Part shown: piece after piece, positions 8,687 through 24,139 of the stretch
Position numbering within the stretch: position 1 is the first letter of the stretch
Layout of the letters: the number at the start of each line of letters is the position of its first letter
NCBI RefSeq assembly: GCF_029968035.1
Contig: NZ_JASCIQ010000005.1
Span: 1 to 64,000, forward strand
Length of the DNA stretch: 64,000 nucleotides
Reading direction: 5' to 3'
DNA from: Streptomyces cavernicola
GTDB taxonomy: Bacteria > Actinomycetota > Actinomycetes > Streptomycetales > Streptomycetaceae
The notes under the pieces: model-generated
The model's input: the letters and a program-made list of their open reading frames with translations, nothing else
Database searches by the model: none
Told to the model about the DNA's origin: nothing
Position numbers and translations under genes: made by a program

Positions 8687-8691
8687 CCTTC

Positions 8692-9278: not shown

Positions 9279-9308
9279 TTGCGGCCCGGTCTTTCGGCCG
9301 GGCCGCAA
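9279..9308 (+). terminator. Intrinsic terminator
   Basis: TTGCGGCCCGG pairs perfectly with CCGGGCCGCAA (11 bp) around an 8-nt loop, 60 nt after the secreted-protein stop codon. Confidence 0.75.
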
Positions 9309-9328
9309 GTCCGGCGGGCGGAATTCGG

Positions 9329-9358
9329 TGGACCAGCCGGCGGGCGGGCGGCTAGCGT
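9329..9358 (+). promoter_or_regulatory. Promoter for the efflux-pump leader RNA
   Basis: GTGGAC (9329-9334), an 18-nt spacer and TAGCGT (9353-9358). The predicted transcription start falls at or one base before the ATG of the leader peptide (9366), so the leader peptide would be translated from a leaderless end. Confidence 0.5.
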
Positions 9359-9365
9359 GCGCGGC

Positions 9366-9395
9366 ATGTCGAGCCCCGAGGCTTCCAGAGGCTAG
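9366..9395 (+). CDS. Nine-residue leader peptide of the efflux pump
   Basis: The open frame encodes MSSPEASRG and ends at TAG 9393-9395, exactly where the first stem-loop (9394-9420) begins. Ribosome stalling here, for example by chloramphenicol, would alter folding of the downstream hairpins. This is inferred from layout and from the known leader-peptide control of other chloramphenicol-resistance genes. Confidence 0.5.
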   Translation: MSSPEASRG

Positions 9396-9555
9396 CCACC
9401 GGACCACGCGTCCGGTGGCTGTACGAGCGGTGGGTCCGTGCGTCACGCACCGACCCCGTCGACGCCTGCCGCGTCGACCCGCCTCCGTACGGCCGAGGCC
9501 TGCTCACCTTCCTCGCGCATCACCTCTCACCTCCTGCCGCCCCAGCGGCGGCAGG
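9394..9555 (+). promoter_or_regulatory. Three-hairpin attenuator region
   Basis: Three perfect stem-loops occur in series. AGCCACCGGA/TCCGGTGGCT spans 9394-9420 (10 bp, 7-nt loop). GTCGACGC/GCGTCGAC spans 9458-9478 (8 bp, 5-nt loop). CCTGCCGC/GCGGCAGG spans 9533-9555 (8 bp, 7-nt loop) and ends 3 nt before the GGAG ribosome site of the pump gene. Their position between a leader peptide and an antibiotic-efflux gene suggests transcriptional or translational attenuation. Confidence 0.5.
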
Positions 9556-9569
9556 GCTGGAGCCTCGAC

Positions 9570-10790
9570 ATGCCTCGTGCGCCACGCATGCCCCTCACCG
9601 TCCACCTCCTCGGACTCGCCGTCTTCGCCATGGGGACCTCCGAGTTCATGCTCTCCGGGCTCGGCCCCGACATCGCCGCCGAGCTGCACGTATCGCTCCC
9701 GACCGTGGCCACGCTGACCTCGGTGTTCGCCGTCGGGATGATCGTCGGCGCGCCCGCGGCCGCGCTGCTCAGCCTGCGCCTGCCGCGCCGCACCGCGCTC
9801 CTCGGCTTCCTCGGCGCCTTCCTGCTCACCCATGTCGCCGGCGCGCTGACGTCGAGTTTCGCGGCGCTGCTCGTCCTGCGCTTCGTGGGGGCGCTCGCCA
9901 ACGCCGGGTTCCTCGCGGTCGCCCTGGCCACCGCGGTCTCCCTCGTCGCGCCCGACGCCAAGGGCCGCGCCACGTCGGCGCTGCTCGGCGGGGTCACCGT
10001 GTCCTGTGTGGCGGGTGTGCCCGGCGGTGCGCTGCTCACCCAACTCTGGGGCTGGCGCGCCGCGTTCTGGGCGGTGGCCCTGCTCTCGCTGCCCGCGCTG
10101 CTCGCGCTCGTACGGTCCGTGCCCGCCGGCCATGTCGAGGGCGCGCCCCGTCCGGACGCCCGCCGCGAACTCGCCGCGCTGCGCCGCCCGCGTCTCCAAC
10201 TCGCTCTGCTGCTGGGTGCGTTGGTCAACGGCGCGACCTTCTGCGCCTTCACGTACCTGGCCCCGCTCCTCACCGACGTCACCGGTCTCGCCGCGTCCTG
10301 GGTGCCGGTGCTGCTCGCGCTGTTCGGCGTCGGCTCGTTCGCGGGGGTCACGCTCGGCGGCCGGTACGCGGACACGCACGCCGCCCGCCTCCTTGCCTTC
10401 GGCACACCCGCCCTGTGCCTGGCCTGGCCCCTGTTGGCCCTCGCGGCGGGCTCGGCCCCGGCGGTCCTGACCTTGACGTTCGTGCAGGGCGCGCTCTCGT
10501 TCGCCGTCGGCTCGACGCTGATCTCCCGCGCCCTGTACGCGGCGCCGGACGCCCCGACCCTCGGTGGCGCCTACGCCACTGCGGCCTTCAACGTCGGTGC
10601 GGCGCTCGGCCCTTGGCTCGGCGGGCTCCCGGTCGCGGCGGGCTCGGGGTTCCGGGCGCCGCTGTGGGTGAGCGCGGGGCTCGTGGGCCTCGCGGGTGCG
10701 GTCGGGGGCGCGGTTCTCCTCGTACGGAAGGCGGCGGTGACGCGAGACGCCCCGGACCGGGAGGTGCGGTCCGGGGCGTCTGTGCAGTGA
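9570..10790 (+). CDS. MFS efflux pump, chloramphenicol (Cml/Cmx) type
   Basis: A 406-residue, 12-helix drug:H+ antiporter of the DHA1 family. The opening HLLGLAVFAMGTSEFMLSGL, the following PDIAAEL and the SLVAPDAKGRATSALLGGVT segment closely match Streptomyces and Corynebacterium chloramphenicol exporters (CmlR/Cmx). The start is ATG 9570 with GGAG 7 nt upstream; a GTG at 9438 lies in the regulatory leader and is unlikely. Expression is probably inducible through the leader peptide and hairpins upstream. A terminator hairpin lies inside the final codons. The substrate is inferred from family only. Confidence 0.88.
   Translation: MPRAPRMPLTVHLLGLAVFAMGTSEFMLSGLGPDIAAELHVSLPTVATLTSVFAVGMIVGAPAAALLSLRLPRRTALLGFLGAFLLTHVAGALTSSFAALLVLRFVGALANAGFLAVALATAVSLVAPDAKGRATSALLGGVTVSCVAGVPGGALLTQLWGWRAAFWAVALLSLPALLALVRSVPAGHVEGAPRPDARRELAALRRPRLQLALLLGALVNGATFCAFTYLAPLLTDVTGLAASWVPVLLALFGVGSFAGVTLGGRYADTHAARLLAFGTPALCLAWPLLALAAGSAPAVLTLTFVQGALSFAVGSTLISRALYAAPDAPTLGGAYATAAFNVGAALGPWLGGLPVAAGSGFRAPLWVSAGLVGLAGAVGGAVLLVRKAAVTRDAPDREVRSGASVQ
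10745..10781 (+). terminator. Terminator hairpin inside the end of the efflux gene
   Basis: AGACGCCCCGGACC pairs perfectly with GGTCCGGGGCGTCT (14 bp, 9-nt loop). It ends 9 nt before the stop codon, so it is translated as part of the C-terminus. Four CAGTGACGG-like words follow at about 10786-10833, with a GTCACTGAGTGAC palindrome among them, probably serving the convergent gene. Confidence 0.65.
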
Positions 10791-10849
10791 CGGACACTCA
10801 GTGACGGTTGTTCAGTGACGGTCACTGAGTGACGGCTGTGAGGGCGTGC

Positions 10850-12811
10850 TCAGCGGTCGCTCTCGTCCACCACCATCGCCGAGCCGCCGCCCCGCCGTTT
10901 CGGCTCGGCGACCGCCGTGACCGTGCCGTCGGGCCCGAATTCGAGCGCCGCGACCGCGCCGATCTCCGGCGACGGCGTGAACGTCTCGGGCGCGGGCACG
11001 AACTTGTGGCCGAGCGCGTCGAGTTCGGCCCGCTCCGGCGAGGAGAGGAACGCGGGCTCGGCCTCGGTCGTGGCCCGGTTGCGTTGCGAGAGGCGCGGCG
11101 CGGCGACCGCTTCGGGCAGGGACATCCCCAGGTCCAGGCGGTTGACCAGGGTCTGCAGGACCGTGGTGATGATGGTCGCGCCGCCCGGCGAGCCCACCGC
11201 GAGCTGCGGCGCGCCGTCCTTCAGGACGATCGTCGGCGACATGCTGCTGCGCGGCCGTTTGCCGGGGCCCGGCAGGTTCGGGTGCGGCACGCCCGGGGTC
11301 AGCGGCTCGAACTCGAAGTCCGAGAGCTCGTTGTTGAGCAGGAACCCCCGCCCGGGAACGGTGATCGCGGAGCCGCCGGTCTGCTCGATGGTCAGGGTGT
11401 ACGAGACGACGTTGCCCCAGCGGTCGGACGCCACCAGGTGTGTGGTCGAGGGGCCCTCGTACGGCTCCTTGCTGCCCTCGCCCGCCGTGCAGCCCCGGCC
11501 GGGACCGCCCTGGCCGGGGCCGTCCTGGCCGGGATCGCTCTGGCCGGGATCGCTCTGGCCGGGATCGCTCTGGCCGGGATCGCCCTGGCCGGGATCGCGC
11601 GGGTCGCCCGGGGCGAGCGGGCTGGTGAGCGCGGCGTCGGGCCGGATCAGGCAGGCCCGCGCCTTCGCGTACTCCTTGGACAGGAGCTCGTCGGTGGGCA
11701 CGTCGGAGAAGGCCGGGTCGCCGACCCAGCGGTTGCGGTCGGCGAAGCCGATCCGGCTGGCCTCCAGGTAGTGGTGGAGCGCCTGGGTGCGGTCGGCTTC
11801 CGCGGGCGAGATCTCGTAGTTCTCCAGGATGTTCAGCGCCTCGCCGACGGTGGTGCCGCCGGACGAGGACGGCGCCATCGAGTACACGTCCGCGCCGCGG
11901 TACGTGGTGTGCGTCGGCTTGCGCGGCACCACCCGGTAGTCGGCGAGGTCCGCGCTCTCCATGAGGCCGGGTCGTACGTTCCGTGTGGAACCCTCGGCGA
12001 CCGGCGGCTTCTTGACCGTGCGGACCACGTCGCGCCCGATGGAGCCGTGGTGCAGCGCGCCCACGCCCTCCCGCGCGAGCTGACGGTACGTGCGCGCCAG
12101 GTCCGGGTTGCGGAACGTCGAGCCCACGACCGGCAACTCCCCGCCGGGCAGGAAGAGTTCGGTGGTCGAGCTGAAGTCGCGGAAGCGGTCCTCGTTCATC
12201 TCGGTCTGGGCGCGGAACTCCTCGTTGACGACGAAGCCCTCGTCCGCGAGCCGCGTCGCGGGCCGCAGCGCCTGCCCGAGGCCGACGGTGCCCCAGTCGT
12301 CCAGGGCCTTCTCCCAGGTCGCCGGGGTGCCCGGAACGCCCACGGACAGGCCGGAGTTGACGGCCTCGTCGAACGGGATCGGCTCGCCCGTCGCCGGGTC
12401 GAGGAACGCGTCCTGCTGCATCTTGGCCGGCGCCGTCTCACGCCCGTCGAGGGTGCTGACCTTGCCGGTCGAGGCGTCGTAGTACACGAAGTAGCCGCCG
12501 CCCCCGACGCCCGCCGAGTAGGGCTCGACCACACCGAGCGCCGCCGCGGTGGCCACCGCCGCGTCGACCGCGTTCCCGCCCTTGCGCAGAACGTCGAGCC
12601 CGGCCTGCGATGCGTACGGATTCACGCTGGAGACCGCACCCCCGCTGCCGACGGCGACGGACTCCTTGCCGGGCGGCCGGGGCCCCGAGTCGGCGGGGGA
12701 GGCAGGGGCGGCGGGAGCGGCGACCGCGCCGGCCGGCGTCAGGACGGGCAGCAGGAGCGCCGCTGCGGACGCGGCGGACGCCGCGGCGAGGACGGTACGA
12801 CGGACAGCCAT
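10850..12811 (-). CDS. ggt: Gamma-glutamyltranspeptidase, secreted
   Basis: A 653-residue secreted precursor that cleaves gamma-glutamyl bonds (glutathione and related compounds). The signal peptide ends near residue 33. The large-subunit signature is GGNAVDAAVATAAALGVVEP. Self-processing should occur before T456 (sequence S-T-T-H-L), the N-terminal nucleophile of the small subunit; GGSAITVPGRGFLLNNELSD follows. A tandem D-P-G-Q-S repeat (about residues 407-437) is inserted just before the processing site and is encoded by 15-bp repeats at about 11515-11590. The start is ATG 12811; upstream in-frame sequence is non-coding in character. A twin-arginine-like stretch is weak. Confidence 0.93.
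   Translation of the reverse strand: MAVRRTVLAAASAASAAALLLPVLTPAGAVAAPAAPASPADSGPRPPGKESVAVGSGGAVSSVNPYASQAGLDVLRKGGNAVDAAVATAAALGVVEPYSAGVGGGGYFVYYDASTGKVSTLDGRETAPAKMQQDAFLDPATGEPIPFDEAVNSGLSVGVPGTPATWEKALDDWGTVGLGQALRPATRLADEGFVVNEEFRAQTEMNEDRFRDFSSTTELFLPGGELPVVGSTFRNPDLARTYRQLAREGVGALHHGSIGRDVVRTVKKPPVAEGSTRNVRPGLMESADLADYRVVPRKPTHTTYRGADVYSMAPSSSGGTTVGEALNILENYEISPAEADRTQALHHYLEASRIGFADRNRWVGDPAFSDVPTDELLSKEYAKARACLIRPDAALTSPLAPGDPRDPGQGDPGQSDPGQSDPGQSDPGQDGPGQGGPGRGCTAGEGSKEPYEGPSTTHLVASDRWGNVVSYTLTIEQTGGSAITVPGRGFLLNNELSDFEFEPLTPGVPHPNLPGPGKRPRSSMSPTIVLKDGAPQLAVGSPGGATIITTVLQTLVNRLDLGMSLPEAVAAPRLSQRNRATTEAEPAFLSSPERAELDALGHKFVPAPETFTPSPEIGAVAALEFGPDGTVTAVAEPKRRGGGSAMVVDESDR
11515..11600. 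repeat. 15-bp tandem repeat within ggt
   Basis: About five copies of the unit GGGATCGCTCTGGCC, some diverged, encode the D-P-G-Q-S repeat preceding the catalytic threonine. Copy number may vary between strains. Confidence 0.8.
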
Positions 12812-13102
12812 GGAGCCTCCGGTGACCTGGAGCGAGGGAGGAGGGAGGAGGGAGGAGAGGGGAGGTGCGGGGCGAGGTGCTGGGGAAGTGCGGGGGGTGT
12901 CGAAACCCTGGCAGCGTCCGGGCAGGTCAGCAACGAACTGCCGGAAGATTTGCGGGAGATCTGAGGTTCCCGCCGAGTAGCCGAAGCCCGCCGCGCGGGC
13001 CGTCTCCGGGCCACCTCCGGGCTGTCTCCGGGCCGCCTCCCGTCCGTCTCCGGGCCGTCTCCGCTCCGTTGGCGACCGCCTCCCGAATCCTCGACCTGTC
13101 GA

Positions 13103-13147
13103 ATATCGATATGGTCTCCTACTCTCGAACATATCGAAAAACGATAA
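13103..13147 (+). promoter_or_regulatory. AT-rich palindromic operators upstream of the DUF2975 gene
   Basis: A perfect palindrome ATATCGATAT (13103-13112) overlaps a possible -10 box TATGGT (13110-13115). A second perfect repeat TATCG-AAAAA-CGATA lies at 13132-13146, against the AAGGAGG ribosome site. The shared TATCG/CGATA half-sites suggest binding by the XRE regulator encoded two genes downstream. Confidence 0.5.
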
Positions 13148-13160
13148 GGAGGGGGACGCG

Positions 13161-13745
13161 ATGACCACGCGACTCACGAAGGTTCTGGCATCCGTGAGCT
13201 TCGGCCTCGCGATGCTCACGGGGCTGACTTTCGCCGGTACGGCGGTGACGCACATGTCCGACGACGGCTCGGTCTGCGTGGAGACGGGCTTCTGGGCCAA
13301 CGCCTCACTGAAGGACGGGCTGCCGCTCGGCGACGGCGTGGACGCGTCCAGCAGCGCCGCGCGCCTCTGCCAGGAAGCCCCCTCGATCGGTCAGCGCGCC
13401 GCCGACCTCGGGGGCCAACTGCCCTGGCTGCTGCTGAGCACCCTCGCGCTGCTGCACTTCGCGCGGCTGCTCAACTCCGTACTGGAACAAGGCCCGTTCA
13501 CCGATACGGTGGCCCGCAAGCTCACCGCGCTCGGGTGGCTGATCGCCGTGGGCACGCCGGTCGCCGGATTCGTCGTCGGCTGGTCGCACTCCTGGCTCGT
13601 CGGGAGCATGGCCCCGATCGTGGGCTCCGGGCCGACGGTCTCCGGACCCCTGGTGCTGATCCTCGCCGGGCTCGCAGCGGTCATCATGGGGAAGATCATG
13701 CGCGAGGGCGTGCGCATGCGAGAGGACCTCGAAGGGACCATCTGA
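13161..13745 (+). CDS. DUF2975-type membrane protein
   Basis: A 194-residue membrane protein with four predicted hydrophobic segments (about residues 8-28, 87-105, 122-145 and 160-180). It fits the DUF2975 family, typically encoded directly before a small YozG-like HTH protein, as here. The extracytoplasmic loop between helices 1 and 2 has two cysteines. ATG 13161 has AAGGAGG 8 nt upstream. The stop codon overlaps the next start by one base (TGATG), indicating translational coupling. The function is unknown; a membrane partner or sensor for the HTH protein is likely. Confidence 0.85.
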   Translation: MTTRLTKVLASVSFGLAMLTGLTFAGTAVTHMSDDGSVCVETGFWANASLKDGLPLGDGVDASSSAARLCQEAPSIGQRAADLGGQLPWLLLSTLALLHFARLLNSVLEQGPFTDTVARKLTALGWLIAVGTPVAGFVVGWSHSWLVGSMAPIVGSGPTVSGPLVLILAGLAAVIMGKIMREGVRMREDLEGTI

Positions 13746-14026
13746 TGCCAGAGGAGGAGCTCCACTCCATCCGGATCCACCTCGACCGGCTCCTCGCCGA
13801 CCGCGGCATGACGCTCACCGAACTCTCCGCACAGGTCGGCATCACCGTGGTCAACCTGTCCGTGCTGAAGAACGGGCGCGCCAAGGCCATCCGCTTCTCG
13901 ACCCTGTCGAGGATCTGCGACGTACTGCGGTGCCAGCCAGGCGAGTTGATCACCCATGAGCCGGGTGGTCCGGGTGGTCCGGGCGGTCAGGGTGCTCCGG
14001 GTGCGGAGGGAGTGGGCCCGGCTTAG
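13745..14026 (+). CDS. Small XRE-type HTH regulator (YozG-like)
   Basis: A 93-residue Cro/CI-type DNA-binding protein. The HTH spans residues 8-66: LDRLLADRGMTLTELSAQVG, then ITVVNLSVLKNGRAKAIRFS and CDVLRCQPGELI. A Gly/Pro-rich tail of about 22 residues from a short repeat (GGPGGPGG) is dispensable-looking. It is translationally coupled to the DUF2975 gene and probably represses the pair through the TATCG/CGATA palindromes upstream. Confidence 0.88.
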   Translation: MPEEELHSIRIHLDRLLADRGMTLTELSAQVGITVVNLSVLKNGRAKAIRFSTLSRICDVLRCQPGELITHEPGGPGGPGGQGAPGAEGVGPA

Positions 14027-14057
14027 GGGGGGCGCCGGGCCCGGTCGTACGGTCGGC

Positions 14058-15119
14058 TCAGCGCGGCCAGCCGCAGTGGACGTGGCGGCTGTGGCCCGCG
14101 TCGCCCGGACCGAGCACCTCGGTGGCGCCGAGCTTCCGGCACGCCGCCATCAGGTCCCGGTGCGGGGCGCCTTCGCCGACGTGGCGGCCGTCGATGTAGT
14201 TCACGTCGAAGGAAAGCCCCGCGTAGTGCCGGGAGTTGGAGCTGTGGTCGCCGCCGACGATCTCGGAGACGGAGACCCGGTGGCCGTACTGGGAGCGCAG
14301 CTTCAGCAGGCCGTCGAGCATCCGGGTGTCGAGCGCCACGCGCTGGTTCGGCCGGTCGCTCCAGGGACTGGTCAGAGCGCCCTTGCCGGCGGCCGTGTCG
14401 ACGATGTTCTGCCGGGCGGTGGAGCCGGCGTGGGTACCGCCCGGGTGGACGGTCGCCAGAGTGATGCCGCCCGTGCCGAGGATCTTCTCGGCCAGCGCGG
14501 CCCGGTTCCCGGACGGTGTGCCGGGGTCGGGGGTGCCGGATCCGGGGGAGAGGAGCGCGGACCAGCTCCGCGGCCCCACGACGCCGTCGGCGGTGAGCCC
14601 GCTCGCCTTCTGGACGGCCTTGACCGCGGCGGCCGTGCCGGGCCCGAACTGCCCGTCCACGGCGACGGACTGCCCCCGGCTCTTCAGCAGCGCCTGGGCC
14701 GCCTTCACGGCCGGGCCCCGCGCGCCCTGCCGCAGCGTCGGGACCAGCTCGCCCCAGGTGGCGGGCCCGACGATGCCGTCCACGGCAAGGCCCTCGCCCT
14801 TCTGGAACGCTTTGACGGCCTGGGCGGTCGCGGGCCCGAACTCCCCGTCCACAGCGACGGACCGGCCGCCGGCGACCAGCAGATGCTGCAGCGCGGTCAC
14901 CTCCGCACCCCGCGCCCCGGCCTGCAGTGTCGGCCAGGAGGTAGCGGCGGGCGCTGCCGCACGGGCCGTGGAGGTGTCGGTGGCGGGCGTGGAGGCGGTG
15001 GCGGCGTTCACGGTGACCAGGCCCGCACAGGCGAGCGCTGCGACGGCGGCGACGGCGGCCATCCGGCCCCGGCGCGCGGTGCGGGCATGACGTGCCGTGG
15101 GGGTGGGGCGTGTGGGCAT
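14058..15119 (-). CDS. Secreted protein with two peptidoglycan-binding domains and an M15-like C-terminal domain
   Basis: A 353-residue secreted wall protein. After a signal peptide (basic to about residue 19, hydrophobic to about 42) come two PG_binding_1 repeats (about residues 62-125 and 130-192). Each has the V-D-G-x-F-G-P-x-T-x-x-A-V-K pattern. The C-terminal domain (about 205-353) contains H-Y-A-G-L-S-F-D-V and a terminal H-S-R-H-V-H-C, compatible with the zinc site of M15/D,D-peptidase-fold enzymes. It therefore probably cleaves peptidoglycan or is a non-catalytic wall binder. ATG 15119 has a GGAGG-like site 6-10 nt upstream. The repeats are close to those in the nearby GH25 lysozyme. 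Confidence 0.85.
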   Translation of the reverse strand: MPTRPTPTARHARTARRGRMAAVAAVAALACAGLVTVNAATASTPATDTSTARAAAPAATSWPTLQAGARGAEVTALQHLLVAGGRSVAVDGEFGPATAQAVKAFQKGEGLAVDGIVGPATWGELVPTLRQGARGPAVKAAQALLKSRGQSVAVDGQFGPGTAAAVKAVQKASGLTADGVVGPRSWSALLSPGSGTPDPGTPSGNRAALAEKILGTGGITLATVHPGGTHAGSTARQNIVDTAAGKGALTSPWSDRPNQRVALDTRMLDGLLKLRSQYGHRVSVSEIVGGDHSSNSRHYAGLSFDVNYIDGRHVGEGAPHRDLMAACRKLGATEVLGPGDAGHSRHVHCGWPR

Positions 15120-15290
15120 GGTGAACTCCTCGGATTTGGAGGGAAGTCGGGGCGGCGGGACCGGAGAAGGAGGTCGGCCGCTGCTTCACTCTGCACGGCT
15201 CGGGTCGAGTCGTTCCAGCGTTCCGAGGGCCTTGCGGCGGTGCATCGATGCATGCATCACGCTGCCGCTATGCGCGCCGCTGACCTGCGC

Positions 15291-16391
<1,101 letters not shown>

Positions 16392-16601
16392 TGATGCGTC
16401 CCCCCAAGTTCACCGTGCATGACGCCAGCTCAACCGCCGTGCATCACCGGGGCCTTGTGCATGAATCAGCCGGCCAGCCGTGAGTCTAGGACTCGCCGAC
16501 GCCGCCGGTGCAGGGTTACGCCAACCACCCCCCATCTCCGGTCGTACGCCCAACTCCACTCGTACGACCGAGACTTGAGCCCGCCTGAAAGGGATCTGAC
16601 T

Positions 16602-17855
16602 GTGTCCAAGCGGAACCCGCGCGCCCGCCGTCGCGGACTGCGCCTGAGTGCCGTGGCCGTCGCCGCCGCGTCGCTCGCGGCCGGTGCCCTGCTGTCCACC
16701 GCGGACGAGAGCCTGGCCGCCCCTCCGAGTACGTACAAGGTCAAGGGCATCGACACCAGCCACCACAACCACGACGCGACCGGCAAGGCCATCGACTGGA
16801 AGCGCGTCGCCCGGTCCAACTCCTTCGCGTTCCTCAAGGCGACACAGGGCACCGGCTACCAAGACCCCTGGTTCGCAAGGGACTTCAAGGCCGCGTCCGG
16901 CACATCGCTGCTCCGCGCCCCGTACCACTTCTTCGACCCGGAGAGCACGACCGACGGCCGCGCCCAGGCCGACCACTTCATCCGCACCGCCCGCGCCGCC
17001 GGCTACACCGGCAAGAAGGCCGGGGAGCTGCCGCCGGTCCTGGACGTCGAGGGCACCTGGCAGAACGGCCAGGAGGTGTGCCCGAAGGCGCTCCGCACCG
17101 ACCAGCTCGCCGCGTTCCTCAACCGGGTGGAGGCGGCTTTCCAGGTCACCCCGATCGTCTACACCCGGGCGTCGTTCGTGACCGGCTGCATGTCCGGCAA
17201 GGGCCAGGTCTTCAAGGGCCACCCGCTGTGGCTCGCCCGGTACGAGAGCGGGTCGAAGGAACCGCAGGACGTACCGGGCGCGGGCGCCGCCTGGACGCTC
17301 TGGCAGTACACGGAGTCCGAGGCGATCCCGGGCCTCCCCGGCGCGAACGGCACCACCGGCAAGGGCGACCGCAACGTGTTCCGCGGCACCCTCGACCAGC
17401 TGCGCGCCCTGGCCGCGGGCGGCGGCGCGGGCGGCGGCGCCCCGAAGCCGCAGCCGGACGAGTCATGGCCGACGGTGCGGGCGGGCCAGCAGGGCGTCGA
17501 TGTCCGCACCGTCCAACTGCTCCTCGCCGCCCACGGGTTCGCGACGACCGCCGACGGCGCGTTCGGTACGGGGACGACGGCGAAGGTCCGCGCGTTCCAG
17601 AAGGCCGAAGGCCTGGCCGCGGACGGCGTGGTCGGCCCCGCCACCTGGTCGAAGCTGATCACCACGGTCAAGCCCGGCGCGAAGGGCCCGGCCGTCAGGG
17701 CCCTGCAGCACCAACTCACCGCCAACGGCCACACTCTCACCCCGGACGGCGCCTTCGGCCCGGCCACGACCAGCGAACTCAAGGCCTTCCAGAAGTCCCG
17801 GCATCTGACCCCGGACGCCATCGCCGGCCCCACCACCTGGTCCGAACTGCTCTGA
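16602..17855 (+). CDS. GH25 lysozyme with two peptidoglycan-binding domains
   Basis: A 417-residue secreted muramidase hydrolysing MurNAc-GlcNAc bonds. The signal peptide spans about residues 1-43. The GH25 domain (about 47-245) has the catalytic pattern: G-I-D-T-S-H at the start, KATQGTGYQDPWFARDF, then the P-V-L-D-V-E acid pair. Two PG_binding_1 domains (about 290-350 and 355-417) follow. The start is GTG 16602, with AAAGGGA 7 nt upstream; the longer frame to 16419 lies in the divergent promoter region. It probably acts with the adjacent wall proteins in wall turnover or autolysis. Confidence 0.93.
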   Translation: MSKRNPRARRRGLRLSAVAVAAASLAAGALLSTADESLAAPPSTYKVKGIDTSHHNHDATGKAIDWKRVARSNSFAFLKATQGTGYQDPWFARDFKAASGTSLLRAPYHFFDPESTTDGRAQADHFIRTARAAGYTGKKAGELPPVLDVEGTWQNGQEVCPKALRTDQLAAFLNRVEAAFQVTPIVYTRASFVTGCMSGKGQVFKGHPLWLARYESGSKEPQDVPGAGAAWTLWQYTESEAIPGLPGANGTTGKGDRNVFRGTLDQLRALAAGGGAGGGAPKPQPDESWPTVRAGQQGVDVRTVQLLLAAHGFATTADGAFGTGTTAKVRAFQKAEGLAADGVVGPATWSKLITTVKPGAKGPAVRALQHQLTANGHTLTPDGAFGPATTSELKAFQKSRHLTPDAIAGPTTWSELL

Positions 17856-17980
17856 CCCCGAGCGAAGGTGTTGGCACAGGCCGGCACAGCGGAACCCCAC
17901 GAAAAGGGCGCCCGGCACAGGGGCACACGGAGGAACCCCACGAGAAAGGGCCGATGCGGCGGAGCCTCACCCTCCGCACC

Positions 17981-18040
17981 GGCCCTTCACCACCGGCCCT
18001 TCACCACCGGCCCTCCACCACCGGCCCTCCACCACCGGCG
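17981..18040. repeat. 14-bp tandem repeat downstream of the lysozyme gene
   Basis: Four to five copies of CCGGCCCTTCACCA/CCGGCCCTCCACCA stand in tandem. Just upstream (about 17893-17955) a CCCCACGAAAAGGGC word occurs twice. There is no gene in 17856-18131; this stretch separates the wall genes from the tRNA-flanked region. Confidence 0.7.
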
Positions 18041-18043
18041 CTG

Positions 18044-18072
18044 CCCAGCAGGACTGGAATCTGCGACACCCG
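18044..18072 (+). repeat. Diverged copy of the tRNA-Arg 3' end (possible attachment site)
   Basis: These 29 bases match 25 of 29 positions of the tRNA-Arg gene segment 22542-22570 in the same orientation. They cover the T-arm and the 3' side of the anticodon region. Direct repeats of a tRNA 3' end typically mark the far boundary of a tRNA-integrated element. No integrase gene lies between them. Confidence 0.5.
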
Positions 18073-18131
18073 ACCGTATGGCCCGGTTGTGGTGTAGTGG
18101 GCCGCTGCGTCTAGGTGATGGGGGAGCTGCT

Positions 18132-19109
18132 GTGCGGCGGTGGGGGAAGATCACGGCGGCGTTCGTCGTGGTGCTGACGGTGGTGGGGCTGGCCGTACGA
18201 CAGGACGTCGAGGAGTGGTGGTCGGCACGCCAGGCGTGTGGTGGGGCGGTGCCGCGGGAAGTCGTCGACGCGCGCAAACCGGATGACGCCCGGCTGCTTC
18301 CTGCAGAGGAGAAGCTGATCGAGGAGACCGGCTGGTACAGGTGCGATCTGCGATACGAGGAGCCTGACGGCAGCCGGGACCAGGTGCTCCACGTGGTGGC
18401 GACCACCGATCGGGACGAGCAGGACGAGATTCTGCGGTACACGTTCGACGACAACGAGGGCTGGATCTTGGGCAGGCAGGTGCCAGAGGGGCTGCCCGGC
18501 ATTCTGCAGGTGAACGACACCCTTCAGCTGCTCATTGACTGTCCCGCCCTGCCCGAGGACGCCGAAGGCCGGCCGCGCAAGCTCCTGGTGCGCAGCGGAA
18601 TCGGAGCCTGGTCCGGAGAATCGGCCCCTCCCGAGCTCGTCGAGTCCGCGGTCTCCTTGGCCAACGGGGCGTCCCGCAAGCTCGGTTGTGGAGCCGAGGC
18701 TCTGAAGCTTCCAGCGGGCAAGGTGTATTACAAACCGCGGCCGCTGTCTCTGAAGGAAGCAGCCGCCACCCCCTGCGAATGGACGGCTCGCGCGGACCTG
18801 CCCGCGGGGGCGAGGGTCTCGATCAGTGGCACCCGAACCTCACACGCCGTGCGATGCGATCTCCACTGGGGCGATGACCTCCGCTACGCCAAGGTGAAGT
18901 TGGCCGCCTTCTACGGAGACTGGGGTAAGAGCCTCCGGTACGACGACGAGGGGAAGCGCCTGCCAGGAACGGTGACGGCTCGGTGTGCGGGCGAGGCGGC
19001 CACCTTCAAGGCGACGCGGGCGGCATCGGGCAGCGGCGTCACGGCGAAGCAACTGCGGGCCTGGACCGAGTCGTTCGCCGGCGCGGAACTCAAGCAGCGG
19101 GGCTGCTGA
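18132..19109 (+). CDS. Uncharacterised membrane-anchored protein
   Basis: A 325-residue protein with one N-terminal membrane segment (ITAAFVVVLTVVGLAV, about residues 7-22) and an external domain with about six cysteines (contexts ACGG, RCDL, DCPA, GCGA, PCEW and RCDL/RCAG). The domain may contain two related halves, since Y-R-C-D-L-R-Y and V-R-C-D-L-H-W recur. The start is GTG 18132 with GGGGAG 6 nt upstream; the frame open back to 17868 lies in repeats. I do not recognise the family. It is the first gene inside the tRNA-flanked region. Confidence 0.8.
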   Translation: MRRWGKITAAFVVVLTVVGLAVRQDVEEWWSARQACGGAVPREVVDARKPDDARLLPAEEKLIEETGWYRCDLRYEEPDGSRDQVLHVVATTDRDEQDEILRYTFDDNEGWILGRQVPEGLPGILQVNDTLQLLIDCPALPEDAEGRPRKLLVRSGIGAWSGESAPPELVESAVSLANGASRKLGCGAEALKLPAGKVYYKPRPLSLKEAAATPCEWTARADLPAGARVSISGTRTSHAVRCDLHWGDDLRYAKVKLAAFYGDWGKSLRYDDEGKRLPGTVTARCAGEAATFKATRAASGSGVTAKQLRAWTESFAGAELKQRGC

Positions 19110-19120
19110 CGCGCATGGGT

Positions 19121-19163
19121 CACACGGCCGCACCACCGCCCGCGCGGTGATCGAGGCCGTGTG
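19121..19163 (+). terminator. Hairpin after the 18132 gene
   Basis: CACACGGCC pairs with GGCCGTGTG (9 bp) across a GC-rich interval soon after the stop codon. Confidence 0.45.
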
Positions 19164-19179
19164 GCCAACGGATGCCGGT

Positions 19180-19258
19180 GCCAGTGCAGTGCAGTGCCAG
19201 TACCAGCGCCAGCGCCAGTGCCAGTGCCAGCGCCAGTACCAGCGCCAGTGCCGGCGCA
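19180..19258. repeat. 6-bp CCAGTG/CCAGCG repeat
   Basis: About thirteen hexamers of the form CCAG(T/C)(G/A)C in tandem lie in a non-coding gap (19110-19332). It is a likely slippage-prone simple repeat. Confidence 0.75.
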
Positions 19259-19332
19259 GTCCATTCCAGTCCTGCTCGGCGTGCACTGCAGACGCCACGT
19301 CAGACGTCATGGCGGAGGGCCGCCGCCGCTCG

Positions 19333-19818
19333 TCACTCTCCTGCGGCCAGCACCTCTTTCGCGCGAACAGCGAAGGCCTCACAGGCATGCTCCGCCGCCT
19401 CGCCGCGGGCGAGCATGTCCGCCTTGTCGGTGGCGAAGAAGATCTCCCGCGTCTGCACCTGTATCGCGGCGGCCTGCTCGGCAAGCTGCTGCGCCTGCGG
19501 GCCGAGGGCAACAAGGCGGAGCCGGAACACACTGCTGCGCACTTCGACATGGAGCCGGTACGACTCGGCTCGGGCCGCGAGCGTCGCCTCTGAGTCGGGT
19601 GATGCGTGCTGGCTCGTCCACCGGTCGTACTGCGCCCGCCGATAGTCCTCCGCCAGGCCGATGAAGTCGGTACAGGCATCGAGGAGATGCTGGTGGCTTC
19701 GCTCGCGGGCAGTGTGCGCCGCGGACCGGGCGGCGATCTTGTCCTGGTAGCGGTGCGCGACGACAGCACCCAGCAACGTTCCGACGACGGCGATGGCGGC
19801 CGCAATGATCCCCGACAC
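19333..19818 (-). CDS. Small membrane-anchored coiled-coil protein, unknown
   Basis: A 161-residue protein. One N-terminal hydrophobic helix (IIAAAIAVVGTLLGAVVAH, about residues 4-22) is followed by a long, Ala/Glu/Arg-rich helical region likely to be a coiled coil. It has no cysteines in the helical part except two isolated ones. The start is ATG 19818. Such proteins are common in Streptomyces accessory regions. The function cannot be assigned. Confidence 0.7.
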   Translation of the reverse strand: MSGIIAAAIAVVGTLLGAVVAHRYQDKIAARSAAHTARERSHQHLLDACTDFIGLAEDYRRAQYDRWTSQHASPDSEATLAARAESYRLHVEVRSSVFRLRLVALGPQAQQLAEQAAAIQVQTREIFFATDKADMLARGEAAEHACEAFAVRAKEVLAAGE

Positions 19819-19905
19819 AACGAACAGCCCACCACCGGGCAGCGTTCACCGGGTAGGGCGCGAATCGGCCACCACTCGCACGCCGCCCTCCGCCGCAAGC
19901 AAGCG

Positions 19906-20265
19906 TCATACGATCCGATGCAGTTCCTTGCCGCCCCAGAAATCGGCTCCGGGGTAGCAGGAGTCGTCGGCCGGTATCGGTGCGCAGAACCAGGCAGCGG
20001 GGAGACGGTACGACTGCCCGTCCCAGCCCTTGCCCCGCGCGACGGTCACGATGCTGCTGTCGATGAGCTGCAGAAAGAGCGCCGTCGTTGGGGACTTGGA
20101 GCTCGTTCCAGCTGTCTGTCTCCAGAAGGTTCGCCACTTGCCGTGCCCTACGACGCCGAGCTGAGCGTTCTTGAGGGGCGGGTGGAGGGGCTCGCGCTGG
20201 TGGCGCAGTTTGAAGGAGCCCTTCGAGTACGCGACCGTAGATGAACTGAGATTGAGTACGAGCAC
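19906..20265 (-). CDS. Hypothetical protein, about 119 residues
   Basis: An unrecognised small protein (start read as GTG 20265: VLVLNLSSSTVAYSKGSFKL). Codon positions are less biased than in neighbouring genes. A GGGGGA ribosome-like site lies only 3 nt before GTG, so the start is uncertain; the frame stays open to 20400. It is divergent from the 20328 gene. It could be a decayed gene within the putative integrated element. Confidence 0.45.
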   Translation of the reverse strand: MLVLNLSSSTVAYSKGSFKLRHQREPLHPPLKNAQLGVVGHGKWRTFWRQTAGTSSKSPTTALFLQLIDSSIVTVARGKGWDGQSYRLPAAWFCAPIPADDSCYPGADFWGGKELHRIV

Positions 20266-20327
20266 CCATCCCCCGCCAGGTAGCCGAGCCCATCTGCCGC
20301 GGCCCCTCGCCGCCGTACCGTCCCCGC

Positions 20328-20824
20328 ATGCCTGACGAGACCGCGCCGCAACGGGAATCCTGGGGCCGAAGGAGCTTCCCCGTGTCGCACCCGAGGACAT
20401 GGCCGGCCGCGCCTTCCAGCAGTCTCAGGAGGCGTACGGCGTTGCGGGCTTCAACCGCACCATTGAGCCGGGAGTCGAGGAGATCGGTGTCAGCACGGAG
20501 AACACCTTCAGCGCCGACTACTGCTACGACGGGGGCCTGCTGGGGCTGAAGGACGACACCGTTGACGGCGCCTACCGGATGCACCACAGCTGGGCCCTGG
20601 ACCGCGTGCCTGCGAGCAAGGCCGTCTCCGGCCTCCGCCGACTGCGCCAGCACCTTGAGCGCAGCGGCTGGGAAGTCACGTCTTCCCGAGAGGGCACGAA
20701 GAACCAGAACTGGGATTTGTTCGTCCAGCGGGACGACGGAGACGAGCGGATGTCCTTCACCTGGTTCCCGGACCGGGAGTACTTCATGGGCGGGGCGTCC
20801 GTCCCATGCGCCTACGACCCCTAA
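20328..20824 (+). pseudogene. Hypothetical gene with an apparent one-base deletion
   Basis: ATG 20328 opens MPDETAPQRESW, preceded by TACCGT 6 nt upstream (leaderless-type). Adding one G to the GGGG run at 20362-20365 would join this frame to G-P-K-E-L-P-R-V-A-P-E-D-M and the 141-residue frame that starts at ATG 20399 and ends at 20824. Without the extra base, translation could only start at ATG 20399, which has no ribosome site. The product (SADYCYDGGLLGLKDDTVDG, later WDLFVQRDDGDERMSFTWFP) is soluble and unrecognised. The lesion is either real decay or a homopolymer sequencing error. Confidence 0.55.
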
Positions 20825-21006
20825 TGGAAGGACGGCGACGTCGGTCTGCCGGGGGAGAGCGAAAGGCCACCGGTCTTCGGCCCTGCCCAGCGTGACTAGG
20901 GGCTGCTGCTGGTTGCGGCCTCGGGGCAGGTTCCTGCGTGCGGCAGCCGGCGTAGTCGGCCTCGGAACCCACTGCGGCGAGACCACGAGACATGACGGGT
21001 GGATGC

Positions 21007-21440
21007 ATGGAGATCATGGAGACAAGGCTGAGTTTCAAGTGGCACGCAGGGATCGTGGCCGGGTGCAGCGCGGTGCTGCTGGCGCTTCTCTCCTGACGTT
21101 CCTGCCGATTCCGCTGGTGCTGCCGGAGTCGAAGTGGTTCATGGTGGGGATCGCGGCGGGGCTGTTCCCGCTGCTTCTGCCGTTCCTGCTGTTCGGTGCC
21201 GCCATGCTGCGTGGCTGCCTCCTCGCCGGAGGTCTCGACAAGAGTGAGAGCCGGCGGGACGTGCTGGCCGTCCCTGGAACTCTCTTCGCCGGTGCGGCCG
21301 TTCTCACCCTCATCGCCGGGGAGGCGCGGCGTGAGCAAGCCGCGACCGCGGCGCTGCCCGGCCCGGCTCAGCCTGGAGGCGGCGAGGGCCCGGAAACGGA
21401 CTGGAGCCACAAGGGGCCCATCGGGGCTCGAAGGCGTTGA
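21007..21440 (+). pseudogene. Small membrane protein gene with an apparent one-base deletion
   Basis: From ATG 21007 the frame reads MEIMETRLSFKWHAGIVAGC and on to L-L-A-L-L-S, then stops at 21094-21096. One extra C in the TCTCC run just before the TGA would continue it into L-T-F-L-P-I-P-L-V-L-P-E-S-K-W-F-M, then hydrophobic helices, ending at 21440. The restored product would be a membrane protein of about 145 residues with three or four helices. The downstream half has no start or ribosome site of its own, so the gene is broken as sequenced. Confidence 0.55.
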
Positions 21441-21499
21441 GTAGCGGTCTGAGTACGGCAGCTCATGTGGGCCCCAGAGCGAGGCAGGACGATGGGCGC

Positions 21500-22183
21500 A
21501 TGACAACTCCTCCGCCGTCGCCCGGGATTCCGCCGCATCCGCCCAACTCCGGGCCCCCGGCGGTGCCGACAGCGCCACAGGCGCCACCAGCGCCACCAGT
21601 GCCGGCGAGGAAGCGACGTGCGGTGCTGATCGGCATCGTCGCCGCGGTCGTCTTCGCGCTGCTCGCCGCGGCCGGCGTGGCGTGGTGGCTGTTGCGCGAC
21701 CAATCCCCGCTGGCGGGGCGGCCGCGGGTGACGGACAAGACGGCAGGGGTCTCGTACGGGATTCCTGAAGGCTGGAAGCATCAGAAGGGCGACCTCGCCT
21801 CTCCCTTCACGTCAGCCATCGTCAAGCAGCCCAGCGATGGTGAGGTTGAAAAAAGCACTGTCATCGCCGGACGGGGCGACGGCGTCCCCGAGTCCGAGCT
21901 GAAGGAGACGACCGAGCTCGCCGCGCGGTCCAACGCGGAGTTCTTCGCTCCGAACGGCTCGTCGAAGCTCAAGGAATCCAAGTCGGCGACGGTGGACGGT
22001 CGCGCTGGGCACTCGACAACGGTGGAGATGGCTGACGGCGAGGGCGCCAAGCTGTACATGCGGATCACGGTGGTGTCCATGGGCGACAGCCGGTCGGTCT
22101 TCTTGCTGGGGTTCTTCCCGCAGTTGGGTACGCCTGAGGAGTCAGATGTCGACGCGGTGGTGGCCAGCGCTTCCTTCAAGTAG
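21500..22183 (+). CDS. Proline-rich membrane-anchored protein, unknown
   Basis: A 227-residue protein. A Pro-rich cytoplasmic N-terminus (TPPPSPGIPPHPPNSGPPAV) leads to one membrane helix (about residues 39-63, VLIGIVAAVVFALLAAAGVA). A 155-residue external domain follows, with no cysteines. The external part (VSYGIPEGWK, later GRAGHSTTVEMADGEGAKLY) resembles small Streptomyces surface proteins with a PsbP/LpqN-like fold, but that is only a visual impression. The start is ATG 21500; the ribosome site is weak (AGGACG). Confidence 0.75.
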   Translation: MTTPPPSPGIPPHPPNSGPPAVPTAPQAPPAPPVPARKRRAVLIGIVAAVVFALLAAAGVAWWLLRDQSPLAGRPRVTDKTAGVSYGIPEGWKHQKGDLASPFTSAIVKQPSDGEVEKSTVIAGRGDGVPESELKETTELAARSNAEFFAPNGSSKLKESKSATVDGRAGHSTTVEMADGEGAKLYMRITVVSMGDSRSVFLLGFFPQLGTPEESDVDAVVASASFK

Positions 22184-22473
22184 CGGGACCTCGGCAACGC
22201 CCCCGGCCGTCCCGGGGGCCGGAGGAACATCGCCAAGGCCCATGGCTGTGCAGCGAGTTGCTGGTGCTGGTCGGGTTCTGACCGGCCGTCAGGGCCCAGC
22301 GGGCATGGGTCCGCATCGATGTACGGGCCGCGGCCGTCCAGGTTGCCGTGCAGGTCGTACCGGCGGTGCGGATACAAGCCGAAGCCGGCGGCCTCGATCG
22401 GGTACGCGGGGCCTCACGGCTCGGCAGCCAGGGCGACGGGCAGTTGTGTCCCCGATCTGCCCCCGCAGACATG
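22184..22473. other. Non-coding gap with a possible gene remnant on the minus strand
   Basis: No intact gene. On the minus strand a short protein-like stretch (GFGLYPHRRYDLHGNLDGRG, then PYIDADPC, about 22290-22400) has no start codon and no family match I recognise. It could be the remnant of a gene of the putative integrated element. Confidence 0.3.
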
Positions 22474-22511
22474 GAAAAGCCCTCCCGGATTGGACTCCGA
22501 GAGGGCTCCTC
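22474..22511 (-). terminator. Terminator of the tRNA-Arg gene
   Basis: On the minus strand AGCCCTCTCGG pairs with CCGGGAGGGCT (mostly GC) and is followed by TTTT, about 27 nt beyond the tRNA 3' end. Confidence 0.7.
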
Positions 22512-22537
22512 TACGCGCAATGCCTGGTCAGGCACAG

Positions 22538-22610
22538 TGCCCCCGGCAGGATTCGAACCTGCGACACCCGCTTTAGGAGAGCGGTGCTCTATCCCCTGAG
22601 CTACGAAGGC
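22538..22610 (-). tRNA. tRNA-Arg (anticodon CCU)
   Basis: A 73-nt cloverleaf on the minus strand. The acceptor GCCTTCG pairs with CGGGGGC, the D arm contains AGGGGATA, the anticodon stem CGCTC.. carries loop CTCCTAA (anticodon CCT), and the T arm is GCAGG-TTCGAAT-CCTGC. The discriminator is A; CCA is not encoded. It reads AGG codons. Its 3' part is repeated, diverged, at 18044-18072, suggesting use as an integration site. Confidence 0.93.
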
Positions 22611-22679
22611 AAGGCGTGCTCGTCAGTGTAGCGGGTGGGGCAGAGCCGGGTTCGGGGGTTGTGGATCAGTGGGGCGGGG

Positions 22680-23960
22680 TCAGGTTCGGGTGATGTGGAT
22701 GCTGTGGGTGCCGTCCTTCTTGGCCGGGCCGACGCTGATGCGGAGGTCGTGCTCCTCGTCCGTGAAGGTCTGCCCGGAGGCGTAGGGCGCGTCGGAGAGT
22801 TCCGCGTGGACGTTGGGGCGGCGGGTGCAGCCGCCCGAGTCACGGCTGGAGTCGCTGACCGTGACGGGGCCGTGGCCGGTGTCGATGTCGGCGTCGACGC
22901 GGTAGACGAGGACGCCGGGCTTGCACACCGCCTCGTCGTTGCCGCCGCGGGTGCGGACCTCGATGGCGTACCCGGTGCGCTCGTCGAGCGGTACGAAGGC
23001 GAGCTTCGTACCGCCGCCCTTCGCGGCGAGCGGCTTCAGGCTGAGGTTGGTCGTGCCGTGGGCCGCGGCGCAGCTGATCTGTTCGTCGTCGAGCCAGCCG
23101 AGCTTCCACTTGTGCCAGCCGAGCAGATCGTTGTTGGCGCCCCAGTCCTCGCTCATGATGTCCCAGTGGCCGACGGCCCCGCCGCCGTCCGAGGTGTAGA
23201 GGTCGGGCAGGCCGAAGATGTGGCCGTTCTCGTGCGGGAGTACGCGATAGCCCGTCTCGCGGTACGAGCCCGAGCCGTCGTCCTGACGGCTGTAGACGAA
23301 GGACGCGTTGGAGACCGGCACGCCGTCGGCGACCGGCGCCTCATGGTTCCCCGCGAACGTCACCGAGAGGACCGTGTCGAGCGCGGACGGCCCGGCGTTG
23401 GGCGTCATCAGCACATTGACCAGGTCGTACTCGCGGAAGTCCACATCCGGGTCCGCCGCCTCGACTATGTCCTCGACCAGCTGGCGGTACCCGGGGTCGA
23501 AGGGGGCACCGCGTTCTATCCCGTACGAGGCGAACGAGCGCGGCATGCGCAGCCAGCTCTTGATGGGGGCGTGCGCCTGGTAGTCGAGGCGGCCGTAGGA
23601 GCTGGTGCGGAACCATTCCTGGGTCTGCGGGAAGAATTCGCCGAGGCGGTCGGTGGCGCGGCCCTGGCCGCGGGCGTCGGAGAAGTCGACCATGAGGTTG
23701 AGGGCGCGGACGATGCCCGTCGAGCGCGCGTACCCCGGCTTCGTGGGGACGCCTTCCGACATCTGGATGCCCATGGTTCCGCTGATCATGCAGGGTGCGA
23801 GAGCACCGGCCCGGCCGGGGCTGCCGGGGCCCGCGGCCCGGGAGTCCGCGGTGAGGCGGCCGGTGCTGGCCGTCACGGTGACGGCGAGGACGAGGGCCGC
23901 GAGTGCGGCGAATACGGGCCTGCGCCGCGGCCTGGATATCCACTCTCGGGACAGCTGCAT
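22680..23960 (-). CDS. Secreted M6-family metalloprotease
   Basis: A 426-residue secreted zinc protease of the M6 (immune-inhibitor-A-like) family. The signal peptide lies at about residues 1-40. The zinc motif H-E-N-G-H-I-F-G-L-P-D-L-Y (HExxHxxGxxD type) and the downstream W-D-I-M-S Met-turn lie mid-protein. The N-terminal M6 signature is RALNLMVDFSDARGQG. The C-terminal 130 residues form a beta-rich domain with few cysteines. The start is ATG 23960 with AAGG 7 nt upstream. It is monocistronic, downstream of and on the same strand as the tRNA-Arg gene's opposite flank, and divergent from the TetR gene. Confidence 0.9.
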   Translation of the reverse strand: MQLSREWISRPRRRPVFAALAALVLAVTVTASTGRLTADSRAAGPGSPGRAGALAPCMISGTMGIQMSEGVPTKPGYARSTGIVRALNLMVDFSDARGQGRATDRLGEFFPQTQEWFRTSSYGRLDYQAHAPIKSWLRMPRSFASYGIERGAPFDPGYRQLVEDIVEAADPDVDFREYDLVNVLMTPNAGPSALDTVLSVTFAGNHEAPVADGVPVSNASFVYSRQDDGSGSYRETGYRVLPHENGHIFGLPDLYTSDGGGAVGHWDIMSEDWGANNDLLGWHKWKLGWLDDEQISCAAAHGTTNLSLKPLAAKGGGTKLAFVPLDERTGYAIEVRTRGGNDEAVCKPGVLVYRVDADIDTGHGPVTVSDSSRDSGGCTRRPNVHAELSDAPYASGQTFTDEEHDLRISVGPAKKDGTHSIHITRT

Positions 23961-24139
23961 CCGCCCGCCTTCCGGTCCGTGGCAGCCGGCCGGTCCTGGC
24001 TGCGCCCTTGTCGATCACCCTGTGGCGGGGGTTGCGCGGGCGCTCGCTGAGGGCGACCGATCGTGTGCTTTTGCCGAAACGGCACGTGAGGCGGGTCACA
24101 TGAGGGGCGGGAAATAACCGGGGAGCCCTTCCCCGTTTA

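Follow-up and report, generated by a model that had tools for sequence, protein, structure and literature searches.

Features of the locus

The window (the whole stretch of 64,000 nucleotides analysed here, from Streptomyces cavernicola contig NZ_JASCIQ010000005.1) carries a tRNA-Arg(CCU) gene on the minus strand, and the 4.5 kb behind it holds small and broken genes, with a partial copy of the tRNA at the far end. The features are listed from the tRNA outwards, with similarities at the nucleotide (nt) or amino acid (a.a.) level; G025 and G289 are related genomes, and C35, C48 and C50 are contigs of G289.

22537-22610, minus strand: tRNA-Arg(CCU), the probable integration target; its 3' part (about 22537-22579) is the attachment site by comparison with elements of relatives.
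22442-22536, minus strand: putative integrase-proximal prophage end, in which a strong hairpin (z = -5.3) follows the tRNA immediately; found in 13 of 391 other genomes of the genus.
22302-22425, minus strand: fragment of a phage minor tail protein gene; 87% nt to G289 C48, 86% to G289 C35 and 85% to G025.
21415-22184, plus strand: gene for a small, probably membrane-anchored protein; 81% nt to G289 C48 and 69% to G289 C35, both at the corresponding place.
21025-21419, plus strand (within the gene at 20999-21440): frameshifted gene for a small membrane protein; 87-93% nt in pieces to G289 C48, 71% to C35.
20328-20892, plus strand: broken gene that has lost its N-terminal membrane segment and stops early; homologues of 72-82% nt at scattered places in nine genomes.
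20128-20177, minus strand: remnant of the N-terminal part of a phage endolysin gene (the endolysin stub); over 50 nt it is 88-90% identical to the endolysin genes of both G289 regions.
19916-20086, minus strand: C-terminal part of the gene that follows the endolysin gene; 76% nt to G289 C48:163340-163507, 67% a.a.
19322-19875, minus strand: gene for a small membrane protein, possibly host-type cargo or a later insertion; 85% nt to G289 C50, near transporter-like genes.
18111-19109, plus strand: accessory gene of unknown function, open frame; homologues of 31-42% a.a. in 14 of 149 relatives.
18044-18072, minus strand: putative decayed far attachment site, a copy of the tRNA 3' part (tRNA positions 41-69).

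Genes of the interval

Searches of the interval frames against Pfam and PHROGs gave sub-threshold matches only (PHROG E-value about 0.04, to families of unknown function), so the identification of a prophage rests on relatives. Five pieces of the window match each of two regions of G289, all in one order and orientation, and genes for a tape measure protein, an endolysin and RecT are present in one of these two prophage regions. From the tRNA outwards the order is that of related Streptomyces prophage regions: the 95-bp end, the minor tail gene, two small genes, the endolysin stub and part of the next gene. The gene fragment noticed beside the tRNA in the initial annotation is borne out, and belongs to the minor tail protein gene, whose homologue in G025 encodes a phrog_1885 protein (minor tail, E-value 1.1e-70). 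The intact endolysin gene of G289 C48 is assigned to phrog_880 (endolysin, E-value 1.1e-62); its stub in the window shares 70% a.a. over residues 14-36, and a deletion has fused the remaining part of the following gene (19916-20086) to this stub. G025 has an integrase gene next to the same tRNA; a copy of the attachment site (45 of 45 positions) follows at a distance of 88 kb, and the tail gene is situated between tRNA and copy.

Homologues of the gene at 21415-22184 lie between tail and endolysin genes in the related prophage regions; G058 has one too (52% a.a.), without recognised phage genes adjoining. Two genes had been described as frameshifted, and both are indeed disrupted. The gene at 20999-21440, assigned by DNA matches and by comparing its frame with that of an intact homologue (a single frame in a G289 prophage), changes frame at 21093. 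Compared with a relative's 249-a.a. protein, the gene at 20328-20824 (within 20328-20892) is missing the first 71 residues; its apparent start lies in a different frame, and it stops early. No counterpart of this second gene was seen in the prophage regions of G289 or G025; a weak homologue (36-41% a.a.) lies 7 kb behind the tRNA in G103.

Two further genes resemble it in having no clear phage affinity, and all three may be cargo or later insertions. The family of 19322-19875 is found in 46 of 149 relatives (28-42% a.a.). For 18111-19109, no PHROG match was found at 0.1, and none of its homologues lies beside the tRNA (the nearest is 59 kb away, in G145).

The repeat of the tRNA

Between 18044-18072 and a 29-bp segment of the tRNA (22542-22570), 25 of 29 positions are identical, as first reported, and the copy is oriented as expected for an attachment site. 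On both strands of the window the next-best match to this segment reaches 19 of 29; in 600,764 strand-bases from the loci of 20 relatives (L008-L027, tRNAs masked) the top match is 21 of 29. Chance was modelled with 300 dinucleotide-preserving shuffles of 8687-22536, searched in the same orientation as the real sequence: the local score of the copy against the whole tRNA is 19, the shuffle maximum is 14.5, and no shuffle reaches the real score. In relatives, exact copies of the 3' part of tRNA-Arg(CCU) lie behind the tRNA (nine of 43-46 bp and one of 37 bp). An inverted match of 17 out of 18 positions was also recorded between 18043-18060 and 19263-19280, along with a second pair of equal length and complementarity.

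The end next to the tRNA

The 95-bp end is directly 3' of a tRNA in six of the 13 other genomes that have it (five times tRNA-Arg(CCU) and once tRNA-Thr(UGU)). The same family of integrases (matching PF00589) is found at most 1.5 kb from this end in eight of the 13, in two of these eight as a 22-a.a. stretch only; in four of the 13, neither this integrase nor either of the two tRNAs is beside the end. The clearest case is Streptomyces sp. LHD-70, a close relative (93% in the protease neighbouring the tRNA), where a near full-length integrase match (residues 13-541, 73% a.a., without stop codon) lies at the same end of the same tRNA. The integrase is at this end in G025, G379 and G280 as well, and in pieces in G289. 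The 64-kb window has no trace of it (best E-value 0.91). Since the integrase is absent from the window and present at the same tRNA end in relatives, we regard the interval as a relic and not as a functional member of its class.

Five element ends, including that of the window, were folded. The ends of other elements at tRNA-Arg(CCU) also begin with a hairpin (judged by eye beyond the five folded). A simple terminator scan of 22380-22700 flagged nothing, although the fold shows a clear hairpin. We tentatively raise the idea, which we hold to be rather unlikely, that the 95-bp end has been kept by selection as a domesticated terminator on which the tRNA now depends; as integration cuts the tRNA off from the DNA that originally followed it, the ends of elements would begin with a hairpin. 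If so, the hairpin end would be the part that cannot be lost while the rest of the relic decays.

Flanking genes and composition

The gene content at the tRNA locus varies across relatives. Recurrent backbone genes resume 13.85 kb from the tRNA, near window position 8.7 kb, which gives the accessory stretch a length of about 13.8 kb (the gene families used in this locus comparison, F0-F34, come from a simple GC3-based ORF caller, and some small ORFs may be spurious). The lysozyme and M6 protease genes had been taken for the original neighbours of the insertion, which is not supported with the backbone so far off: a lysozyme match at 1e-60 is found in six of 149 relatives, on contigs other than that of the tRNA or at least 0.8 Mb away (G117). 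We therefore rejected the lysozyme, itself accessory, as an ancestral flank for the empty-site test. The predicted site with the lysozyme joined directly to the tRNA was not found among the relatives, nor was a clean empty site seen in any of them. The lysozyme resembles phage endolysins in PHROGs (best E-value 1.3e-34); GH25 enzymes generally show such resemblance.

Composition was not informative: the GC content of the interval is slightly low (0.683 versus 0.710 for the window), but 1-kb windows do not set it apart (0.67-0.70 inside, 0.68-0.76 on the left and 0.66-0.72 on the right).

Origin of the interval

With high confidence, we read 18044-22536 as what remains of a tailed prophage with a tyrosine integrase, which had recombined with tRNA-Arg(CCU) in the 3' part of the gene. 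The initial proposal of an old tRNA-targeting element that has lost its integrase is supported: relatives keep the same end and integrase at the same tRNA, and the interval still has collinear prophage fragments. Compared with what a tRNA-integrated tailed prophage should have, the direct repeat of the tRNA 3' part is present at the far end, though decayed; structural and lysis genes are present as fragments only (minor tail, endolysin stub and the following gene), collinear with the G289 regions; there is no integrase gene beside the tRNA in the window; and no head, packaging or replication genes were recognised among the interval frames (PHROGs, Pfam). In the proposed course of events, a prophage would have recombined with the 3' part of the tRNA gene, leaving the tRNA whole and placing a second copy of this part at its own far end. 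Later deletions may then have taken most of the phage genome, the integrase gene included. The integrase-proximal end and the far attachment site would remain, together with tail and lysis fragments still ordered as in the prophage, and with some host-type genes among or beyond the phage fragments. With the integrase missing and the far site degenerate, the relic is not expected, judging from its sequence, to excise by itself.

That the copy at 18044 is the partner site of this same prophage is the less secure part. The phage fragments could come from one prophage, the copy being the scar of a second, older element that owned the genes at 18111-19875. We consider this accretion plausible, though not the likelier history: those genes lack phage affinity, several relatives (L046, L058, L069, L084, L091, L095) carry at least two successive tRNA copies behind the tRNA, and the literature describes tRNA-Arg accretion with a remnant in Streptomyces (PMC9513070), whereas the copy at 18044 is the sole far copy between tRNA and backbone in the window. 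It is very improbable that the interval derives from a conjugative element (AICE) instead. Such elements do occupy the same tRNA in several relatives (the one in G021 has integrase, RepSA and FtsK-like genes by Pfam), but in the interval no integrase, Rep or TraB/FtsK-like genes were found by Pfam, PHROGs or comparison, and no rep or tra pieces were recognised; tail and endolysin pieces are there instead. The integrase that accompanies the retained end, moreover, belongs to another subfamily and shares 28-36% identity with the remaining integrases matched in the searched loci. We give practically no credence to the view that there is no element at all, with a chance tRNA-like word amid ordinary chromosomal genes: the unremarkable GC content and three genes that look host-type would suit it, but not the shuffle result, the collinear prophage fragments or the varying content of the locus.

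The insertion at the tRNA in G289 and that in the window are, from sequence comparison, probably not the same event, as the gene at 21415-22184 is nearer to the copy on contig 48 (81%) than to the G289 copy at the tRNA (69%). When the interval was searched as DNA against the genome it comes from, to look for another such element, four weak matches of 32-99 bases came up besides the interval itself.

Comparison with known elements

An unlabelled stretch can now be read as a placed fossil, with the kind of element, its end and its losses named. One site offers a series of decay stages: an element that appears to be of full size (G025, site copies 88 kb apart), one with a broken integrase (G289) and the 4.5-kb relic. 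Such a series across Streptomyces could be used to study how fast prophages decay.

Streptomyces phage ZL12 (plasmid-prophage pZL12) alone among phages matches the tail fragment, in two records that both stand for this phage; the match is a single short one, 51% a.a. over 37 residues (E-value 5e-4). ZL12 is a plasmid prophage, whereas the prophage of the window was integrated at a tRNA. Neither the DNA of the whole interval nor a 198-a.a. frame gave a match in the phage collection, and no record of actinophage VWB was returned with the interval. By its published description, VWB is a tyrosine-integrase phage with its attachment site in a tRNA-Arg gene; its repeat, 46 bp long, matches part of this tRNA exactly (PMC13346255). 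The target is alike, and nine exact repeats in relatives cover 43-46 bp of tRNA-Arg(CCU) as against 46 bp in VWB; the window differs in holding a relic without integrase. AICEs and accretion at Streptomyces tRNA-Arg genes, with flanking repeats and decayed remnants adjoining the tRNA, appear in two papers (PMC9513070, PMC3218068), and our interval shares with them the kind of target, the flanking repeats and the decayed remnant beside the tRNA. AICEs are conjugative, whereas in the interval phage gene fragments occur and neither rep nor tra genes were recognised. As tRNA-Arg is a published integration hotspot in Streptomyces, the relic is real but ordinary, and it fits the general understanding of such elements without changing it.

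Repeated tRNA-Arg(CCU) sequence at the far end

The interval 18044-22536, which we read as a tailed-prophage relic, is bounded by the following features:

22537-22610, minus strand: tRNA-Arg(CCU)
18044-18072: far copy of a tRNA piece, 25/29 positions identical to tRNA segment 22542-22570

The initial annotation had claimed this recurrence, and it holds: the second-best match to the 29-bp piece in the window is 19/29, and the best in 20 relatives' loci is 21/29 (600,764 strand-bases, tRNAs masked). Scored against the whole tRNA (local ungapped score), the far copy reaches 19, as compared with a maximum of 14.5 over 300 dinucleotide shuffles of 8687-22536 in the same orientation. Integrase-mediated recombination at the 3' part of a tRNA gene keeps that gene intact and places a second, same-oriented copy of the part at the far end; the orientation and placement of the far copy fit this geometry. 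Tandem 14-bp repeats (17970-18039) lie within 5 bases left of the far copy.

Similar copies were found in relatives. Our first survey (1,070,020 bases: the window and 60 fetched loci, a few overlapping; score at least 14, outside tRNA genes) gave 18 copies in addition to that of the window. Of these, 17 share its orientation and lie 3' of tRNA-Arg(CCU) (for four, whose loci do not include the tRNA, genome coordinates gave the position); the last, in locus L018, is an inverted piece that immediately follows the tRNA. In the second survey (28 loci, 487,142 further bases) nine out of 12 copies have this 3' position and orientation; the other three are all on contig 48 of a close relative, G289 (two copies of the tRNA-Thr(UGU) 3' part, 94-95% over 43-47 bases, and a short 5'-half match). 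The third survey (80 named loci, 989,313 bases) added four matches: two with the 3' position and orientation described above, one of 14 bp, and one (43/43) that is cut by the locus end and is probably the tRNA itself. Ten copies from the first two surveys are exact, nine of them 43-46 bp long (anticodon loop to 3' end) and one 37 bp; decayed copies also occur (e.g. 43/49 in L052 and 38/43 in L053). AICE-type elements are found at tRNA-Arg(CCU) in several relatives; in the one checked against Pfam, from genome G021, the genes recognised include a PF00589 integrase, RepSA and one that is FtsK-like. Locus L095 (genome G151) has four tRNA-Arg 3'-part copies within 3.3 kb (12824-16132; 43/43, 21/25, 32/33 and 34/40), suggesting that old attachment sites have accumulated there.

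Prophage fragments and the lost integrase

A search with 17000-24000 covering 392 genus genomes (own included) gave a 92% match in G289 starting at 22442, 95 bp beyond the tRNA. Window matches lie in one order and orientation on two G289 contigs, 35 (behind the tRNA) and 48.

Window segments matched on G289 contigs 35 and 48
22442-22536: 95-bp end; 77%, contig 35 only
22302-22425: tail-gene fragment; 86% to contig 35, 87% to contig 48
21415-22184: gene; 69% to contig 35, 81% to contig 48
21025-21419: broken gene; 71% to contig 35, 87-93% in pieces to contig 48
20128-20177: endolysin start; 90% to contig 35, 88% to contig 48
19916-20086: gene next to endolysin; 76%, contig 48 only

The frame of the broken gene changes at 21093 in the window and is unchanged in the contig 48 copy. 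The contig 48 region is phage, with PHROGs matches to a tape measure protein (phrog_10780, 6.4e-104), an endolysin (phrog_880, 1.1e-62) and RecT (phrog_2780, 3.5e-47). The tail gene of another relative, G025, is a minor tail protein (phrog_1885, 1.1e-70); it lies 67 kb from the tRNA, which has an integrase beside it and whose 3' part recurs 88 kb away (45/45 positions identical). Among phage records, the tail fragment matches only Streptomyces phage ZL12, which has two entries (51% aa, E 5e-4). The gene at 21415-22184 resembles its contig 48 counterpart more than the one at the tRNA in G289, so insertion at the tRNA probably occurred separately in the window and in G289. The two tRNA-Thr(UGU) copies of contig 48 (L102 17688-17727 and L107 15331-15378, 17 kb apart) adjoin a second related prophage region and are possible attachment sites.

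The 95-bp end is found in 13 of 391 other genomes. In six it immediately follows the 3' end of a tRNA gene (Arg-CCU in five, Thr-UGU in one), and in eight a member of the same integrase family lies no more than 1.5 kb away (in two of these as a 22-aa stretch only). Four have neither such tRNA nor such integrase; two of these four matches span 32-42 bases, adjoin different tRNAs (Asn, Arg-UCU) and could be hairpins of a generic kind. A native flank would be expected to be common beside the tRNA, and this sequence is not. In Streptomyces sp. LHD-70 (M6 protease 93% aa), the corresponding position beside tRNA-Arg(CCU) has a near full-length integrase match of 540 stop-free codons, 73% aa identical to the G025 enzyme over residues 13-541; the G289 integrase is broken, with matches in different frames. 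No integrase trace was found in the window, where the 22442 end nearly abuts the end of the tail fragment at 22425: a deletion has joined the two almost directly. The collinear phage pieces and the relatives' integrase at the same end bear out the earlier claim that the 4.5 kb separating the two repeat copies is an old tRNA-targeting element without its integrase. Locus L111 (G090:C1:4303000-4322000) has the 95-bp end (72%) and the integrase family (63% aa) behind tRNA-Thr(UGU); related elements of this family therefore use two different tRNAs.

Judging from the relatives, a phage integrase would have recombined the phage attachment site with the tRNA 3' part. Self-excision would not be expected today, because the integrase is absent and the far site is degenerate. 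The 95-bp end of the window folds into a strong hairpin (z -5.3), and similar folds are formed by the ends in G289 (z -6.6), LHD-70 (z -7.1) and G025 (z -7.1), whose stems differ in part of their sequence; the end of the G021 AICE at the same tRNA forms a different hairpin (z -5.1). Transcription of the tRNA may end at the hairpin of the 95-bp end; in the window, a simple scan for terminators did not flag it.

Flanks and extent of the accessory DNA

Of 150 genus genomes, own included, 142 have a match (E up to 1e-50, in some only at the 40% level) to the M6 protease encoded 5' of the tRNA; the distance between the two genes is highly variable. In some relatives (e.g. G104, G136, G005 and G109) it is 80-116 kb. 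The additional DNA there is 5' of the tRNA, a position not accounted for by integration at the 3' end.

On the 3' side, gene families were compared among 29 tRNA-containing loci (own included; 12 fetched loci without the tRNA were omitted). Family F3 is followed by F5 in L020, L024, L027, L053, L061 and L064; beyond F5, where the locus extends, come F13 and F7 (L024, L061) or F7 alone (L053). F3 and F5 are absent from the fetched part of L052 and L062, where F7 is present in a different arrangement (F13 also in L052). F3 was not found in the window, which has F5, F13, F7, F21 and F15; its F5 begins near 8686, at a distance of 13.85 kb from the tRNA. The nearest thing to an empty site is L027, where 385 bp separate the tRNA from the start of F3.

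The lysozyme gene (16602-17855), initially proposed as the ancestral left flank, is matched at 1e-60 in six of 149 relatives; the matches are on contigs other than the tRNA's or, in G117, at least 0.8 Mb off. As F5 is 13.85 kb away and the lysozyme is rare and distant, the accessory stretch is ∼13.8 kb and the lysozyme is not an ancestral flank. The accessory DNA between relic and backbone (8687-18043) encodes gamma-glutamyltransferase-like, peptidoglycan-binding and lysozyme genes; 11055-12659 matches G289 contig 26 and the backbone matches contig 72, so this gene is located elsewhere in G289.

Three genes of the interval have no PHROGs match below 0.01:

18111-19109: open accessory gene; 14 of 149 relatives have homologues, in no case adjacent to the tRNA
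19322-19875: family in 46 of 149 relatives; 85% homologue in G289 near transporter-like genes
20328-20892: broken copy of a gene occurring at scattered places in nine genomes

These genes may have been carried by the prophage or by a different element, or may have inserted later. A link of 20328-20892 to elements at the tRNA-Arg(CCU) site is possible, because G103 has a weak homologue 7 kb behind the tRNA.

Comparison with known systems

According to published accounts, actinophage VWB integrates into a tRNA-Arg with a 46-bp repeat (PMC13346255), AICEs occupy tRNA genes, tRNA-Arg among them (PMC3218068), and elements have accreted at a tRNA-Arg where a remnant is also present (PMC9513070). The prophage relic is a further instance of such integration at tRNA-Arg.
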